Below, in pieces: positions 33,615-40,888 of a stretch of 64,000 nt of DNA. The first letter of the stretch is position 1. Each line of letters begins with the position of its first letter. The notes under the pieces were generated by a model. It did no database searches. It saw nothing but the letters and a program-made list of their open reading frames with translations, and was not told where the DNA came from. Source of the DNA: Crenothrix polyspora (GTDB lineage: Bacteria > Pseudomonadota > Gammaproteobacteria > Methylococcales > Methylomonadaceae); assembly GCF_900163755.1 (NCBI RefSeq), contig NZ_FUKI01000096.1:1-64000 (forward strand), in the 5' to 3' direction. The position numbers were made by a program, and so were the translations under genes.

Positions 33615-34196
33615 TTAATGATGACGGTGATGGGGGCCATAAGAAGGCGAGTAATAACCGCTGCCGTAATAGGGATAACCACCCCATCCGCCTCTCATGC
33701 CGCCATAATAACCACCGTAAGAACCAAAGCCGCCAAATCCACCGTAGCTATTGTAGTAGTTGTCAGGCTCATATTTTGGCCACATAAATATCGTTTGTGA
33801 TAAAACCACTGGCAGTTTAAGTATTCTTTTATCAACTGTGCGTTCTGTGTCACCCGCTAATGGACCAAATACCGTCACTTCAGTATTTTTGGTATACACG
33901 ATAGGATCGAGAAATGTGGAACTTTGGATTATAAAACGACCGCCACTGCTTTGATCGATTTGTGGTCTGCCATAGCTGTTTAATGGATACAGTAGGACTT
34001 GAATAAAGCTTTGATATTGTTTATTTTCTACATCAATAATCACCCCGCCCCAGCGCACAACAGTATTTTTATGGCTATTAATGTTTTGCATAGCCTGGCT
34101 GTAAGAAATATCTATTGATGGCGTATTTTCAATATTACGCGGTAGATTCGAACAGGCGCTTAACAACAAACAGCTGGAAATTAAATATTTTTTCAT
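33615..34196 (-). CDS. Slp family outer-membrane lipoprotein with Gly/Tyr tail
   Basis: A lipobox, LLSAC (Cys15), marks a lipoprotein. The mature part follows the Slp family pattern, with SYSQAMQNINSHKNTVVRWGG (about residues 30-50), VLLYPLNSYGRPQIDQSSGG and LPVVLSQTIFMWPKY. Slp in E. coli is an outer-membrane lipoprotein induced by starvation and acid. The last 45 residues are rich in Gly and Tyr (GGFGGFGSYGGYYGGMRGGW) and end in HHRHH, unlike E. coli Slp. A paralog at 39440-40888 shares the N-terminal domain but has a different, cysteine-rich tail; both surround the signalling genes between them. Confidence 0.87.
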   Translation of the reverse strand: MKKYLISSCLLLSACSNLPRNIENTPSIDISYSQAMQNINSHKNTVVRWGGVIIDVENKQYQSFIQVLLYPLNSYGRPQIDQSSGGRFIIQSSTFLDPIVYTKNTEVTVFGPLAGDTERTVDKRILKLPVVLSQTIFMWPKYEPDNYYNSYGGFGGFGSYGGYYGGMRGGWGGYPYYGSGYYSPSYGPHHRHH

Positions 34197-34485: not shown

Positions 34486-34965
34486 TTAAAAAGAATTACT
34501 GTTGTTTACCTGTGTATAAACAGCGACTAAATCTCGGATGACTTGCTGAGAGGCTTGCGCGTAATGACCATCTTTAAGTTCTGCAAGCGCTGTAGACTTA
34601 TCTTGTGTTTGTGCTAAATGCAACACTTTACCCGCGCAGCTGTGAAAATGAGCATGATTTTTTTGCAGTTGTTCAAATTGCACTAATGAAGAAAATTTTT
34701 GAGTACCCGTGCTGTGAATCCATTTGCCAAGCAGGCATTGATCATCACGGCTAACCACTTCAACTTGCAGTGTTTCCGCCGAACTGCCGTCAACGACAGA
34801 GGTAAGACGCTTCTTCCAATTTTGATGCGCCTCAATAGCGGATATAAAATTCAAGCCGACTGTTTCTTCAGCTTTAATATGCGTAATGTCTACCGCTGCA
34901 AAAGCCGATACTATCGGTTTAGGCTTTTTTCTATTCAGTAAGTTTTTAAACCAGTTTTTAAACAT
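34486..34965 (-). CDS. CZB domain zinc-binding protein
   Basis: The ATG at 34965 (MFKNWFKNLLNRKKPKP) has a GGAGT upstream; the frame is open 12 codons further. The 159-residue protein has the chemoreceptor zinc-binding (CZB) signature: AIEAHQNWKKRL with the first His, DDQCLLGKWIHSTG with the Cys and Trp, and NHAHFHSCAGKVLHLAQ with the last two His. CZB domains regulate chemoreceptors and diguanylate cyclases by sensing zinc or oxidants such as hypochlorite at the Cys-Zn site. Here the domain stands alone with a basic N-terminus and no membrane segment. It lies 240 bp downstream of the STAS gene on the same strand. Confidence 0.85.
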   Translation of the reverse strand: MFKNWFKNLLNRKKPKPIVSAFAAVDITHIKAEETVGLNFISAIEAHQNWKKRLTSVVDGSSAETLQVEVVSRDDQCLLGKWIHSTGTQKFSSLVQFEQLQKNHAHFHSCAGKVLHLAQTQDKSTALAELKDGHYAQASQQVIRDLVAVYTQVNNSNSF

Positions 34966-35015
34966 CACAGCGCATACTCCCCAATAATTAAAATTAATCA
35001 AACTTAGGGCTATCT

Positions 35016-35078
35016 ACTTAAAATAGGACAAAAATAATAATGCTTTAGGGTTGGGCTGCGTACTGTTTGGCAATCCAA
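35016..35078. repeat. Partial copy of the 121-bp element
   Basis: This 63-bp stretch (ACTTAAAATAGGACAAAAATA, then GGTTGGGCTG and TGTTTGGCAATCCAA) matches the left half of the element at 32244-32364, starting just before its left end. The right inverted end is not found, so this copy is truncated. Confidence 0.55.
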
Positions 35079-35203
35079 TTTACATTGTTGTTCCTGACTT
35101 GATAGCCCAATTTAGAAACACAGGTCATAAATAACCTGAGTCTTAAAGCTAAGTGTAGTAGGACACTGGCGTTTTTTAAGGGCGATTCAAAATTAAATAG
35201 TTG

Positions 35204-36331
35204 CTAAGTGTAGCGGTTATAAACCATTTGTAACATGTGTAATTCGCCCGTTTCCGGCGCATTCCAACCGCCAGTTTGAATATCAGCCAAAATTTGTTGA
35301 CCTTGTGTATCTTGTGTCATGTTGGTTAACACTTTAATCAATTCCTCGGCGTGATTTTTTATGTGTGGCGAAATACAAAATAAATGTGACGCGAAATCGG
35401 TTTCGCTCTCATCCAGTTTTTGCACGTTACTGCGGCTGAATGACGATAAGCCCTGAAAGGTTTTTTTCAGCATAAAAACCAAATCGCATTTACCACGAAT
35501 TAGTGACTGTAAGGCTTTTATTTCGTTGCCGGCAATATCAAAAACAAACTGTGCCGAATCTACACCACTTTCATCACATAAAAACCGCCCTAATAAATAC
35601 ACAAAGCTGCCTTCGGTGGCGACACTCACTGTTAATCCTTGCAATTCTTTTAAGCTACGATCGTCATCAATACGGGTCAATATAACCACTTCATCGGCTT
35701 CAGCAATGGGTTTTAAAATAGGAATAAAGCCATGATTTTTTATCATTTCGCAGGCTTCAAACGGTTTAGCAAATAATAAATCAGTTAAATTACCATTGGG
35801 TGTATTGGCCGCTTGCTCAAAATGAATAGCGCGATTTAATTTGCGTTGTAAATAAGTATTGAGTAAATACCAGCCAGTCAGTTGTTGACCGGATTGCAAG
35901 GTGGCAACAAAATTTAATTTATCGTGTGGAATATGTACTGCAACGGGTTTGTGTTCCGCGTGGCGAGGTGGCTCTGGATTAAGTGCAGGGCTGTCGACGC
36001 TTAAAGCAATATCTTTGGTTGTCGAACTGATAAAACGACCAAGGCCGGTAATCTTAAACAGCATATTAATCATACGATTTAAACGCTGCACTTCAACTTT
36101 AATTTTTTTATTTTCCCAGTCTTCAAACAATTTTAATAGCAACGACAAACCCATGGAATTAACGCGCTCAACTTTGCTAAAATCCAGCAATACATGTGAG
36201 CCCGCTTGTGCTGTCGTCAGTGATTGTAACGCGGAAGCGGCATGTGCATCTATTGAGCCTACGAACATATAACGACACATTTCGCCTTGCTTGGAGACTT
36301 CTTCAATACTGAAGGTATTTGACATCAACAT
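35204..36331 (-). CDS. STAS domain fused to PhnD-like binding domain
   Basis: The start MLMSNTFSIEEV at 36331 is set by GGAG at a good distance (AAAGGAGATTTAATT); the frame is open further upstream. Of 375 residues, about 1-110 form a STAS domain of the anti-sigma-factor-antagonist type, with the switch serine in VERVNSMGLSLLLKL (Ser59). A Pro-rich linker follows, then from about residue 140 a PhnD-like periplasmic-binding-protein fold (FVATLQSGQQLTGWYLLNTY, SVATEGSFVYLLGRFLCDE, LTNMTQDTQGQQILADIQTG). There is no signal peptide, so the binding domain would act in the cytoplasm, with an unknown ligand. The gene follows the SpoIIE-type gene by 13 bp, and its ribosome binding site overlaps that region, so the two are translationally coupled. 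Confidence 0.82.
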   Translation of the reverse strand: MLMSNTFSIEEVSKQGEMCRYMFVGSIDAHAASALQSLTTAQAGSHVLLDFSKVERVNSMGLSLLLKLFEDWENKKIKVEVQRLNRMINMLFKITGLGRFISSTTKDIALSVDSPALNPEPPRHAEHKPVAVHIPHDKLNFVATLQSGQQLTGWYLLNTYLQRKLNRAIHFEQAANTPNGNLTDLLFAKPFEACEMIKNHGFIPILKPIAEADEVVILTRIDDDRSLKELQGLTVSVATEGSFVYLLGRFLCDESGVDSAQFVFDIAGNEIKALQSLIRGKCDLVFMLKKTFQGLSSFSRSNVQKLDESETDFASHLFCISPHIKNHAEELIKVLTNMTQDTQGQQILADIQTGGWNAPETGELHMLQMVYNRYT

Positions 36332-36344
36332 AATTAAATCTCCT

Positions 36345-39017
36345 TTAGGCGGCTTCGTGTTCGCTGTGGTAGAGGAATTGCACGCCTGAATCGACATTCA
36401 TATCGACCGTGCCGTGTAAATCCCATAAAGTGGTCACTTGGGTACGTTTTTGTGGGTGTACACGGATTTGCAGATAATCGGCTAAGCGCCACATCATATA
36501 CAAGCCTACACCACCAATACCCGCTTCAACACCTTCTTCCATTGATCGTGCTATGTTTTTTAAGAATATACCCGGTGTTAACGTGCCCCAGTTGTCGGTA
36601 ATCATTAACCCTAAAAAATCTTGACTGAGCGCAATGTCTATCCGTACTTCTTCATGCTCTGACAATTCTCTGGATTCACCTTTGGTGTAATATGCCACGC
36701 CTTTACCGTCACGGGGTGCGGCATATAAGCTGTTTTCAGTCATTTCATCCAAAATCACCATTAAAGCCTCCAGTTGTTCGGCGGCAATGCGGCCTTGATC
36801 GGCTAGCCATGATTGAATTTCTTCCATAATGAATAGTTTGTCTTCGGTATGGGTTAAATGGAATTGACGGTGTTCTGCGTTGCCTGGCATGAGCGCGAAT
36901 AAATCATCACTGGGTGAGTCATGGTGTTGATTGAGTAAATGTTCCCAGCCAAGTTTTTTGCAGACATCATCATGGCGCGGCAAAATACGGCAAATACCAT
37001 CTTGACTAAAACGGGTCAGTAAGTCGGCATAACCATGCTCAGCCAGAAAAACCACATATTCTTTTGAAATCCGTGGAATAGGGTGTTCGCCTTGGCGGTA
37101 GAAATTTTCTGAAATACGAATAATATCGCTGACTTCATTATCCATCGTGCTGGCTTGTGTTACCCGATCACTGTGAACAACGATGGCAATGGTTACGTCA
37201 TCGGTATAGGCTGTACCACGGCAATGCATGGCCAGTGCGTCTAATAATTTGCCACGCAAGGTGTCAACATCGGCATCGGTGTAGGCATTCAGTACCGCTT
37301 CCAAACGATCATAACCAAATGCTTCACCAGAAGGTGATTCTTCTTCCACTAAGCCATCGGTGTATAAAAACAGCTTGTCACCCACGTTCAGCGTCAACTC
37401 CATTGCATAGGCACGATAATCGGTATCAAGACTTTTGCCCAGTGGTAAACCAGACGCTTCCAGCATTACCCATTCATGGCTTTGATAACGCAGTACGTAA
37501 GGTAAAACGTGGCCTGCGTTAGCAAACAGTAATTTGCCGGTACGTGCATCAAGGCTTAAGCACGCCATAGTCATTAATAATGATTGTTGTGCGGTAGCGC
37601 GAATGGTTTTATTGAGTGAGCTTAAAATTTCCGCAGGGCTGGTAATGCCGCTAACAATAAGAGGGTAAACACCGGCTTTGGCCGCTGATACCAAGGTTCC
37701 CGCTGCCACACCATGACCACTTACGTCACCAATGAGCAAAATATTATGAAAGCCGCCAATGTTGTAGTAATCGTAATAATCGCCACCAACCTCACTGGAG
37801 GTTAACAAATTAGCTTGGCCTTGCATACCGGGTAAGTTGATGTGTGGGCTAGGTAAAATAGCGCGTTGCAACGCCGCCGCCAAGTTGATTTCGCCTTGTA
37901 AACGCAGACCAATTTCAGCCAGTTCTATGTTGGCTTGCTGGGCTTTGCGCTGTGCATCTTTACGGTCGGTAATGTCCAAACCCGTGGCTAAAAACATAAC
38001 CGGCTGTTTGGTTACTGAATTTTTAAGTACGGTTGAATTCCATACTACGTCAATTAACTCGCCGGTACTGATGCGCATTTTGGTTTCAATTTCTTCACCA
38101 AATTTTACCGCACCGGACATCATATTGTTAAACAGTGTTTCCAGTGCATTAAGATTATCGTCGGGAATACAACGTTTAAAAAAATGACTGCCTTTGATTT
38201 CTTCTTCTGACCAGCCGGTGTCATTTTGTGCATGTTGATTGAACAGTACAATTTGTCCTTGTGCATCAAGCCCTACGATGAGTGAATGCGTGGTGTTAAT
38301 GACGTTATCTGCTTCTTGTTTCATAATCAAGGCTTTTTCTTGCAAACTGGAAATTAACGGATGCAAAAGCAAAAAACCCACCGTGATTAACGATGCCAGG
38401 GTAATCACAAAAGAGATATGCTGTTTGTTAATAGTCGCGCTGAGCATAAACTCACTGTGGCGCTGTTGTATTAACGATACGCGGCTGATTTCGTCAAGTA
38501 TGACGGGGGTATAGACAAAAAATAAACGGCTAAGATCAGTATTGGTTAGGGTGATTTCACCTGCAGGAATACGTTGCAGCTTACGGGCAATGGATAAATA
38601 CTCTCGCATAACCGTATCTAAGGGTTTAGCGCCTTCAAAATACAGTTGCCTTAATTCTGTGGATAATTGCCCGGGTATATGAATCAGTCGTTGCCCTTCT
38701 CGAATAAAGCGCACGCCTTCACGTAACGCCGCGTGAGATTCTTCTAGCTGAATGATATTGGAAATGATTTTGGAGTCTATCTTGCGTACTTCGGTAGCAT
38801 CGGTGAGATAGGTTTTGTGTGTGAGCGACAGATTAATTTCTTCAATAAGTTGCCCTTGTTCGCTGCTAATTTTAACCAGTAGCGCGTTACCTTCCTGTTC
38901 TCTAATATCGGTAATTAATACCAGGTAGGTAGCACCAGAAACCAAAGCTAACAACACCAATACCACGGCGTATTGATCTAATAAGTAGTTAATAATGCGT
39001 TGAAAAATTTTTTGCAT
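36345..39017 (-). CDS. Membrane PAS-SpoIIE phosphatase with HATPase domain
   Basis: This 890-residue protein has two membrane segments (about residues 14-34 and 201-220) with a helical sensor region between them, a PAS domain (about 235-350: SLIVGLDAQGQIVLFNQHAQ), a PP2C/SpoIIE phosphatase domain (about 385-610: GEINLAAALQRAILP, GGDYYDYYNIGGFHNILLIG, DVSGHGVAAGTL) and a C-terminal GHKL ATPase (about 700-870: EMTENSLYAAPRDGKG, ITDNWGTLTPGIF, GIGGVGLYMMW). The SpoIIE part keeps the metal-binding Asp residues. It is likely to sense a signal at the membrane, dephosphorylate the STAS protein encoded next (phosphatase role) and, through the HATPase, also phosphorylate it or sequester partners. That partner link is inferred from the operon. 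Confidence 0.88.
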   Translation of the reverse strand: MQKIFQRIINYLLDQYAVVLVLLALVSGATYLVLITDIREQEGNALLVKISSEQGQLIEEINLSLTHKTYLTDATEVRKIDSKIISNIIQLEESHAALREGVRFIREGQRLIHIPGQLSTELRQLYFEGAKPLDTVMREYLSIARKLQRIPAGEITLTNTDLSRLFFVYTPVILDEISRVSLIQQRHSEFMLSATINKQHISFVITLASLITVGFLLLHPLISSLQEKALIMKQEADNVINTTHSLIVGLDAQGQIVLFNQHAQNDTGWSEEEIKGSHFFKRCIPDDNLNALETLFNNMMSGAVKFGEEIETKMRISTGELIDVVWNSTVLKNSVTKQPVMFLATGLDITDRKDAQRKAQQANIELAEIGLRLQGEINLAAALQRAILPSPHINLPGMQGQANLLTSSEVGGDYYDYYNIGGFHNILLIGDVSGHGVAAGTLVSAAKAGVYPLIVSGITSPAEILSSLNKTIRATAQQSLLMTMACLSLDARTGKLLFANAGHVLPYVLRYQSHEWVMLEASGLPLGKSLDTDYRAYAMELTLNVGDKLFLYTDGLVEEESPSGEAFGYDRLEAVLNAYTDADVDTLRGKLLDALAMHCRGTAYTDDVTIAIVVHSDRVTQASTMDNEVSDIIRISENFYRQGEHPIPRISKEYVVFLAEHGYADLLTRFSQDGICRILPRHDDVCKKLGWEHLLNQHHDSPSDDLFALMPGNAEHRQFHLTHTEDKLFIMEEIQSWLADQGRIAAEQLEALMVILDEMTENSLYAAPRDGKGVAYYTKGESRELSEHEEVRIDIALSQDFLGLMITDNWGTLTPGIFLKNIARSMEEGVEAGIGGVGLYMMWRLADYLQIRVHPQKRTQVTTLWDLHGTVDMNVDSGVQFLYHSEHEAA

Positions 39018-39439: not shown

Positions 39440-40888
39440 TTATTCTTCCGTGCGTTGCCGCTTCTTTTTTTCTACTTCGGCGGCTGCGGGTTCAACTGTT
39501 GGCACTGGTTCTGCTGCGGGTTCAGGTGTTGGTTCCGTCCTTGGTGTAGGCGGCTCTGGTGTGGGTTCGGGTATCGGTTCTGGCCTTGGTGTCGGTGGTT
39601 CTGGTGTGGGTGTCGGTGGCTCTGGTGTCACTGTTGGTTCAGGTGTCGGTGTAATTGCCGTACAGCCACCCATGCCATCCGCTATTTCATCGCTGTCGCA
39701 GTGATGAATTTCAGGTGTTGGTTCAAGTGTTGTTGGTGGTTCAGGTGTTGGTGTAATTGGTGTACAGCCGCCCATGCCATCTGATACTTCGTCGCTGTCG
39801 CAGTGATGAGTCGATGGTTCTGTTGGTGTTGGCGCAGGTGTTGGTGTAATTGTTGTACAACCCCCCATACCATCAGGTACCTCATTGCTTTCACAATGTG
39901 TTGGTTTTGGCTTGCAACCGCCCAAGCTATCAGCTATTTCATCGCTGTCGCAGTGATGAGTCGATGGTTCTGTTGGCGTTGGCGCAGGTGTTGGTGTAAT
40001 TGTTGTACAACCCCCCATACCATCAGGTATCTCATTGCTTTCACAATGCGTTGGTTTTGGCTTGCAATCGCCCATACCGTCAGGTATTTCGTCACTTTCA
40101 CAATGTGTTGGTTTTGGCTTACAGCCGCCTATGCCATCGAGTTCTTCATTGATAGCACAATTTATGGGCGGTGGGCAGCCATCATTAACTTCTCCCTGCT
40201 CATGATGGTGAATTCTGCCATCGCAGGGCGGAGGTGGAGGCGGAGGTGGAGGCGGATGAGGGCAGTCAGTATAATCCACACGGCCAAACATCGGAACAGG
40301 GCAGGGTGGCGGAGGTGGAGGGGGCGGCGGCGCAGGCAGATGCGTGCCCTTTTTAAGATAAGTATGGCCGCCGTATCCGCCATAACTGTGGTTATAGTTA
40401 TAGCCGCCGTATGCGCCCCACCCGTACGGCGAATACCCAGAAGCGGTTTGTGGTGCTGGCCAAAGATAAATCATTTCTGATAAGACCACAGGTAACACAA
40501 GGTTTCTTTGATCAATGGTGCGTTCGATAAGGCCGCTCAGTGTGCCAAAAGCGGTTACTTCGGTATTGGCTTTATAAATCACCGGATCAAGAAATTTAGG
40601 GCTTTTTATCATAAAGCGGCCAAGACTGTTTTGTTGCAAGTCTGGCCTGCCATTGCTGTTTAGCGGGTAGAGTAAAACGTGAATAAAGCTGTGGTATTGA
40701 TAGCTTTCTACGGCAATAATAACGCCACCCCAACGCACAAGGGCGTTTTTGTAATACGCTATATTTTGAATGGCTTGCAAATAGCTAAGGTCGTTTAACG
40801 GGGGATTTTCAATACGGGGTGGTAGGTGTGTGCAGGCGCTTAATAATAAGCAACCAGAAAGTAGGTATTTCCTTATTAACTTTCTCAT
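39440..40888 (-). CDS. Slp-family lipoprotein with Pro-rich and C-x11-C repeats
   Basis: The first 170 residues repeat the Slp pattern of the gene at 33615-34196 (lipobox LLSAC with Cys19; SYLQAIQNIAYYKNALVRWG; LPVVLSEMIYLWPAPQ). After that comes a Gly/Tyr patch, two polyproline runs separated by CPVPMFGRVDYTDCP, and then seven imperfect repeats of the form C-x-S-D/N-E-I-x-D-G-M-G-G-C, each with exactly 11 residues between two Cys. Pro/Thr linkers (ITPTPAPTPTEPSTHH) lie between several of them. The C-terminus is a Pro/Glu spacer ending KKKRQRTEE. An outer-membrane anchored, disulfide-rich surface protein is likely. Parts of the repeat region are near-identical at the DNA level (about 156 bp), so copy number may vary between strains. 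Confidence 0.82.
   Translation of the reverse strand: MRKLIRKYLLSGCLLLSACTHLPPRIENPPLNDLSYLQAIQNIAYYKNALVRWGGVIIAVESYQYHSFIHVLLYPLNSNGRPDLQQNSLGRFMIKSPKFLDPVIYKANTEVTAFGTLSGLIERTIDQRNLVLPVVLSEMIYLWPAPQTASGYSPYGWGAYGGYNYNHSYGGYGGHTYLKKGTHLPAPPPPPPPPPCPVPMFGRVDYTDCPHPPPPPPPPPPCDGRIHHHEQGEVNDGCPPPINCAINEELDGIGGCKPKPTHCESDEIPDGMGDCKPKPTHCESNEIPDGMGGCTTITPTPAPTPTEPSTHHCDSDEIADSLGGCKPKPTHCESNEVPDGMGGCTTITPTPAPTPTEPSTHHCDSDEVSDGMGGCTPITPTPEPPTTLEPTPEIHHCDSDEIADGMGGCTAITPTPEPTVTPEPPTPTPEPPTPRPEPIPEPTPEPPTPRTEPTPEPAAEPVPTVEPAAAEVEKKKRQRTEE

Follow-up and report, generated by a model that had tools for sequence, protein, structure and literature searches.

A stretch of 64,000 nucleotides from Crenothrix polyspora (the window, to which coordinates without a locus prefix refer) carries on its minus strand a gene for a membrane SpoIIE-family sensor/phosphatase/kinase (36345–39017), followed by a gene for a STAS domain fused to a cytoplasmic PhnD-fold domain (35204–36331) and one for a stand-alone CZB protein (34486–35001). 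Genome comparison indicates that the first two genes form an old pair, which we read as a partner switch of the HsbR/HsbA or CrsR/CrsA kind with a Ras-like GTPase/roadblock network as its most likely output; we give this reading about an even chance. What is new here is the link of the STAS-PhnD switch to a GTPase/roadblock operon through the nearest cytoplasmic kin of its PhnD domain. The features of the locus are as follows.

36345–39017, minus strand: SpoIIE-family sensor/phosphatase/kinase, 890 residues, domain order TM-PAS-PP2C-kinase
37968–38309, minus strand: PAS domain, residues ~237–350 (Pfam, 5.6e-9)
37179–37742, minus strand: PP2C/SpoIIE phosphatase domain, residues 426–613 (PF07228, 2.6e-36)
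36393–36827, minus strand: GHKL serine-kinase domain, residues ~731–875 (HATPase_c_2, 8.5e-5, under the Pfam cut-off)
36340–36345, minus strand: ribosome-binding site AAGGAG before the STAS-PhnD ATG, overlapping the last base of the SpoIIE stop codon
35204–36331, minus strand: STAS-PhnD fusion, 375 residues, cytoplasmic (STAS, 1.6e-11; PF12974, 4e-21)
36023–36313, minus strand: STAS domain, residues ~7–103 (Pfam, 1.6e-11), aligned with RsbV and SpoIIAA
36155–36157, minus strand: codon of Ser59, the predicted phospho-switch residue, in the context RVN-S-MGL
35207–35923, minus strand: PhnD-fold domain, residues ~137–375 (PF12974, 4e-21, and structural model)
34486–35001, minus strand: stand-alone CZB protein (PF13682, 3.1e-12) with the zinc-ligand motifs AHxxWK, RDDxC and HxHFH

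The SpoIIE stop codon, at which the gene ends (36345), and the ATG at 36331, the likely translation start that gives the fusion its 375 residues, are separated by 13 nt. This spacing, together with the overlap of the ribosome-binding site with the stop codon, bears out a first-pass annotation of the window that had described a membrane PAS-SpoIIE-HATPase protein coupled to a STAS protein. The CZB reading frame begins 202 nt beyond the STAS-PhnD stop and is thus without coupling to the pair; its true start is likely to be the ATG at 34965. A terminator scan of the STAS-PhnD/CZB interval returned a single weak hairpin (35138–35121). Genes for two Slp outer-membrane lipoproteins lie on either side of the trio (33615–34196 and 39440–40888), the latter with an extended tail made up of Cys-containing repeats of the DGMGGC type.

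The SpoIIE-family protein has two transmembrane segments (residues ~8–33 and ~199–225) with an extracytoplasmic segment between them. Acidic residues of the PP2C metal site (D413, D416, D431, D554, D606 and D607) are invariant across 35 homologues, and the N-box (E/N) and G-box glycine residues of the kinase-domain ATP site are likewise invariant. Despite the sub-cut-off Pfam score, a kinase fold is supported by a model of the C-terminal 279 residues (pLDDT 86), for which SpoIIAB and RsbW are the best structural matches; the modelling supports assignment of the C-terminus as a SpoIIAB/RsbW-type serine kinase domain. Combined with the Pfam PP2C match, the model agrees with the earlier description of phosphatase and kinase-like domains in one chain. 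The input end varies among relatives (TM-PAS, PilJ-PAS or CBS); what stays constant is the partnership with STAS-PhnD.

The STAS domain sits at the N-terminus of the fusion, in which no signal peptide, transmembrane segment or hydrophobic segment was detected. Ser59 aligns with SpoIIAA Ser58 and is invariant in 52 homologues; the first-pass annotation had placed the switch serine at position 59, and the numbering is right when counted from the ATG at 36331. RsbV and SpoIIAA, which are STAS-only anti-sigma antagonists, have the same fold and a serine at this position, but their motif is D-S-[ST]-G, whereas the present protein has N-S-M-G and a C-terminal PhnD domain. In paralogues from relatives of Methylovulum (L033, L035, L037, L038, L042, L044 and L046), two or three tandem STAS domains precede one PhnD domain. 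The switch serine is present in the tandem repeats examined, within the motif N-S-[MIL]-G. These paralogues are paired with short SpoIIE proteins (about 700 residues), of the CBS type where tested. LpxD, GlnRS and MoaC genes near them were considered as targets and rejected, as they look like ordinary genome context.

A model of STAS-PhnD (pLDDT 84) gave ArrX, PhnD1 and PtxB as top Foldseek matches (E = 1e-13 to 1e-14), and superposition of the PhnD domain on PtxB with VIA-align gave a Z score of 23.5 over 238 residues at 2.5 Å. The structure prediction and the lack of an export signal confirm the cytoplasmic PhnD-like domain that had been proposed from the translation. The fold is held in common with AioX/ArrX/ArxX and with PhnD/PtxB (Z scores of 21–23.5), but those proteins are periplasmic and bind oxyanions, whereas the domain described here is cytoplasmic, STAS-fused and without the ligand residues of E. 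coli PhnD. We take Tyr47, Tyr93, the STS loop and His157 to be the phosphonate-contacting residues of E. coli PhnD, of which an H157A entry is present among the PhnD structural matches. In a sequence alignment whose loops are uncertain at such distance, neither the fusion nor its cytoplasmic relatives retain Y47, Y93, S127, T128 or H157; of the contact positions, S129 alone has serine in most copies. The loss of these residues makes phosphonate or phosphate, which the first-pass annotation had suggested as ligands to be screened, unlikely. N158, P190, D213-E214 and G268 are conserved in STAS-PhnD, within loops where the fold binds ligands. The better guess is a conserved non-phosphonate ligand or a protein partner.

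Residues N158, T159, Q162, P190, D213 and E214 are common to STAS-PhnD and to the group of free cytoplasmic PhnD proteins, and N158, T159, Q162, P190 and E214 are missing from E. coli PhnD. A STAS-PhnD profile matches the free cytoplasmic proteins at 1e-40 to 1e-51 but recovers none of the periplasmic PhnDs of solved structure at E ≤ 0.01. The free proteins are mostly of 247–251 residues and start directly at the fold, and so have no signal peptide. In a phylogenetic tree, STAS-PhnD forms one group (support 100/99) beside the PhnD of the seven-gene GTPase operon described below and other cytoplasmic PhnDs, although its exact sister group is unsure because the outgroup branches are very long. 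Weak PhnD-profile matches considered as periplasmic outgroups were unusable as PhnD homologues, with the exception of L191. The latter (L191:947–1714) encodes a PhnD-like protein that bears a DIVYANPQD motif, has no obvious signal peptide and joins the tree close to the cytoplasmic groups through a long branch. The top STAS-PhnD profile scores overall belong to a second kind of free PhnD (L130, L131 and L141, from relatives of Acidithiobacillus), which in L149 lies outside the GTPase operon. By these comparisons, the cytoplasmic PhnD of the operon is among the nearest relatives of the fused domain.

The first-pass annotation had called for a search for the fusion and its neighbours in other genomes, and the fusion proved to be widespread with its SpoIIE partner conserved. 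A scan of genome contigs located 80 STAS-PhnD loci in named organisms, including Methylovulum, Methylobacter, Crenothrix, Methylocaldum, a Bathymodiolus symbiont, Leucothrix, Acidithiobacillus, Sphaerotilus and Leptothrix; within the family (Methylomonadaceae), about 37 of 151 genomes contain the fusion by hand tally. The coupling is kept in relatives: almost all loci whose flanks are intact have the SpoIIE gene ending at the STAS-PhnD start, the spacing being about −4 to +20 nt (longer predicted overlaps occur in some, depending on the start chosen). Apart from the pair itself, no gene family recurs widely beside it in about 80 loci, and hence no sigma or anti-sigma gene recurs there. Conserved neighbours were also considered as the target of the switch: none is widely recurrent, and genes of the GTPase operon adjoin in four cases.

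This operon consists of seven genes in the order c34, c35, Ras-like GTPase, c5, roadblock/LC7, PAS and, last, cytoplasmic PhnD; the order is the same in most loci examined (for example, L077:4046–12819). The operon was seen in many Gammaproteobacteria (L077, L146, L151, L152 and L171–L190). The GTPase matches the ATP_bind_1 and Ras profiles (2.3e-13 and 8.5e-5, respectively), the roadblock protein matches an MglB model (E = 0.007) and c5 gives a weak roadblock match; the PAS protein resembles the Aer PAS. By these profile matches, the operon can be likened to MglA/MglB and to the actinobacterial conservon (CvnA-D), which also combine a Ras-like GTPase and a roadblock/LC7 regulator in one operon. 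Unlike the conservon, it shows no CvnA-type histidine kinase and has instead the PAS protein, the cytoplasmic PhnD and two proteins, c34 and c35, without significant Pfam matches. In the genome to which the window belongs, contig C22 carries a chemosensory cluster of two receivers, CheW, CheA and an MCP, with the roadblock and c34 genes at one end of the cluster and c35, GTPase and c5 at the opposite end (L153:8527–16948 and L145:322–9835). One congener has this layout in full, and what is seen in a second agrees with it (L157 and L156). The PAS and free PhnD genes of the operon are missing from the C. polyspora genome. The idea that STAS-PhnD replaces the free PhnD is unsupported, since many genomes have both and several genomes with the GTPase have neither.

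The pair is physically linked to the operon, or to parts of it, in four cases: in L077 the operon encloses it, in L083 and L084 it immediately precedes c34-c35-GTPase, and in Methylobacter it comes right after a roadblock gene (L076/L154, with a damaged copy in L155). The roadblock gene beside the pair in L155 (8394–8720) itself seems damaged, consisting of two partial pieces with 54% identity. Genes of the operon are absent from all other pair loci examined, which makes such linkage the exception; in most genomes, C. polyspora included, pair and operon are unlinked. With presence defined as a match at E ≤ 1e-60, the GTPase was found in 33 of 369 genomes (9%) sampled across Gammaproteobacteria and in all 16 STAS-PhnD genomes checked (including Leucothrix, Acidithiobacillus, Sphaerotilus, Leptothrix and Methylocaldum), two of which (G532 and G533) have coordinates that identify them as G097 and G052 of the family set and thus stand in both samples. 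Within the family, the GTPase is present in 33 of 37 STAS-PhnD genomes versus 45 of 114 others (hand tally). The Fisher tests applied to these counts ignore relatedness, and the second also includes the duplicates G532 and G533; the co-occurrence is partly phylogenetic. Four STAS-PhnD genomes of the family have no close GTPase match, two of them nearly complete (G071 and G139).

In HsbR/HsbA of Pseudomonas aeruginosa and CrsR/CrsA of Shewanella oneidensis, one protein carries both a PP2C phosphatase and a SpoIIAB/RsbW-like kinase domain, and the target of these domains is a STAS-type antagonist that bears the switch serine (PMC6482189). The present pair is alike in having one phosphatase-kinase protein predicted to act on a STAS switch serine. 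It differs in that HsbR and CrsR are receiver-domain proteins, whereas the N-terminal receiver typical of that family is absent here and a membrane TM-PAS sensor takes its place (PilJ or CBS input in relatives); furthermore, HsbA and CrsA are STAS-only and act on RpoS, FlgM or HsbD, whereas here STAS shares one chain with the cytoplasmic PhnD domain. By analogy with these two systems, the membrane protein would use its extracytoplasmic segment and PAS domain to sense a signal, its SpoIIAB/RsbW-like domain would phosphorylate Ser59 of STAS-PhnD and its PP2C domain would remove the phosphate. The phosphorylation state of Ser59, possibly together with a ligand in the PhnD cleft that may gate the switch, would then decide which partner STAS-PhnD binds. 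That phosphate is transferred, which partner and ligand are bound and in which direction control runs are inferred. The output suggested as most likely by the genomic evidence is the cytoplasmic GTPase/roadblock network, the operon of which includes a gene for a close relative of the PhnD domain; fused and free PhnD probably share a partner or ligand. Against this output stand the usual lack of linkage, the partly phylogenetic nature of the co-occurrence, the four STAS-PhnD genomes with no close GTPase match, the missing PAS and free PhnD genes in C. polyspora and the direct binding of a sigma factor by the CrsR kinase domain. The more specific proposal that the switch directly controls the Ras-like GTPase/roadblock system, with STAS phosphorylation delivering or withdrawing a GTPase-regulating PhnD-fold domain, is put forward tentatively.

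Several other readings of the pair were weighed. A sigma switch of the CrsR/CrsA type, in which the SpoIIE kinase domain sequesters RpoS or another sigma factor, unphosphorylated STAS-PhnD releases it and the PhnD domain adds metabolic gating, would account for enzymatic domains that are the same as those of CrsR and HsbR (PP2C plus a kinase/anti-sigma domain) and for the best matches of the kinase model to the anti-sigma factors SpoIIAB and RsbW, and the related CrsR kinase domain does bind a sigma factor directly (PMC6482189). We nevertheless regard it as rather doubtful, as no sigma or anti-sigma gene is recurrent beside the pair and as it explains neither the GTPase-operon link nor the relatedness of fused and free PhnD. 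The pair might instead be a self-contained, metabolite-gated switch on some other target (a cyclase, transporter or enzyme), with the GTPase co-occurring through shared lifestyle only. HsbA controls the cyclase HsbD (PMC6482189), and SBP-fold proteins of the AioX type (AioX, ArxX and ArrX), which are also top structural matches here, serve as sensors in signalling elsewhere (PMC5908839); the conserved residues in the ligand-binding loops of the fold fit such a sensor as well. The adjoining GTPase-operon genes in four cases and a co-occurrence that extends over distant clades make this reading unlikely.

The first-pass annotation had joined the CZB protein to the pair in a three-gene module, which would sense phosphonate or phosphate plus zinc or an oxidant. 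The CZB gene is real and is the sole one in the C. polyspora genome, and the three genes are co-directional both here and in one congener (L003/L048). Its membership of the module did not stand: a search of the loci of other relatives found no CZB gene beside the pair outside the genus, the 202 nt gap separates it from STAS-PhnD and the phosphonate-ligand residues are gone. We have rejected CZB as a component for lack of conserved linkage, and consider the three-gene module very improbable.

Neither a STAS-PhnD fusion, nor a relevant paper on SpoIIE/STAS in methanotrophs or on roadblock and phosphonate, nor a description of the seven-gene operon was found in the literature searched (most subscription journals lie outside its scope), and within that literature the earlier statement that the fusion is not a described system holds. 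Control of sigma factors is what partner switches are chiefly known for. If the reading of a GTPase/roadblock output is true, a widespread STAS-PhnD variant with genomic ties to a small-GTPase operon would connect signalling of two kinds, and would provide a testable input for an operon that is found in many Gammaproteobacteria, including methanotrophs.
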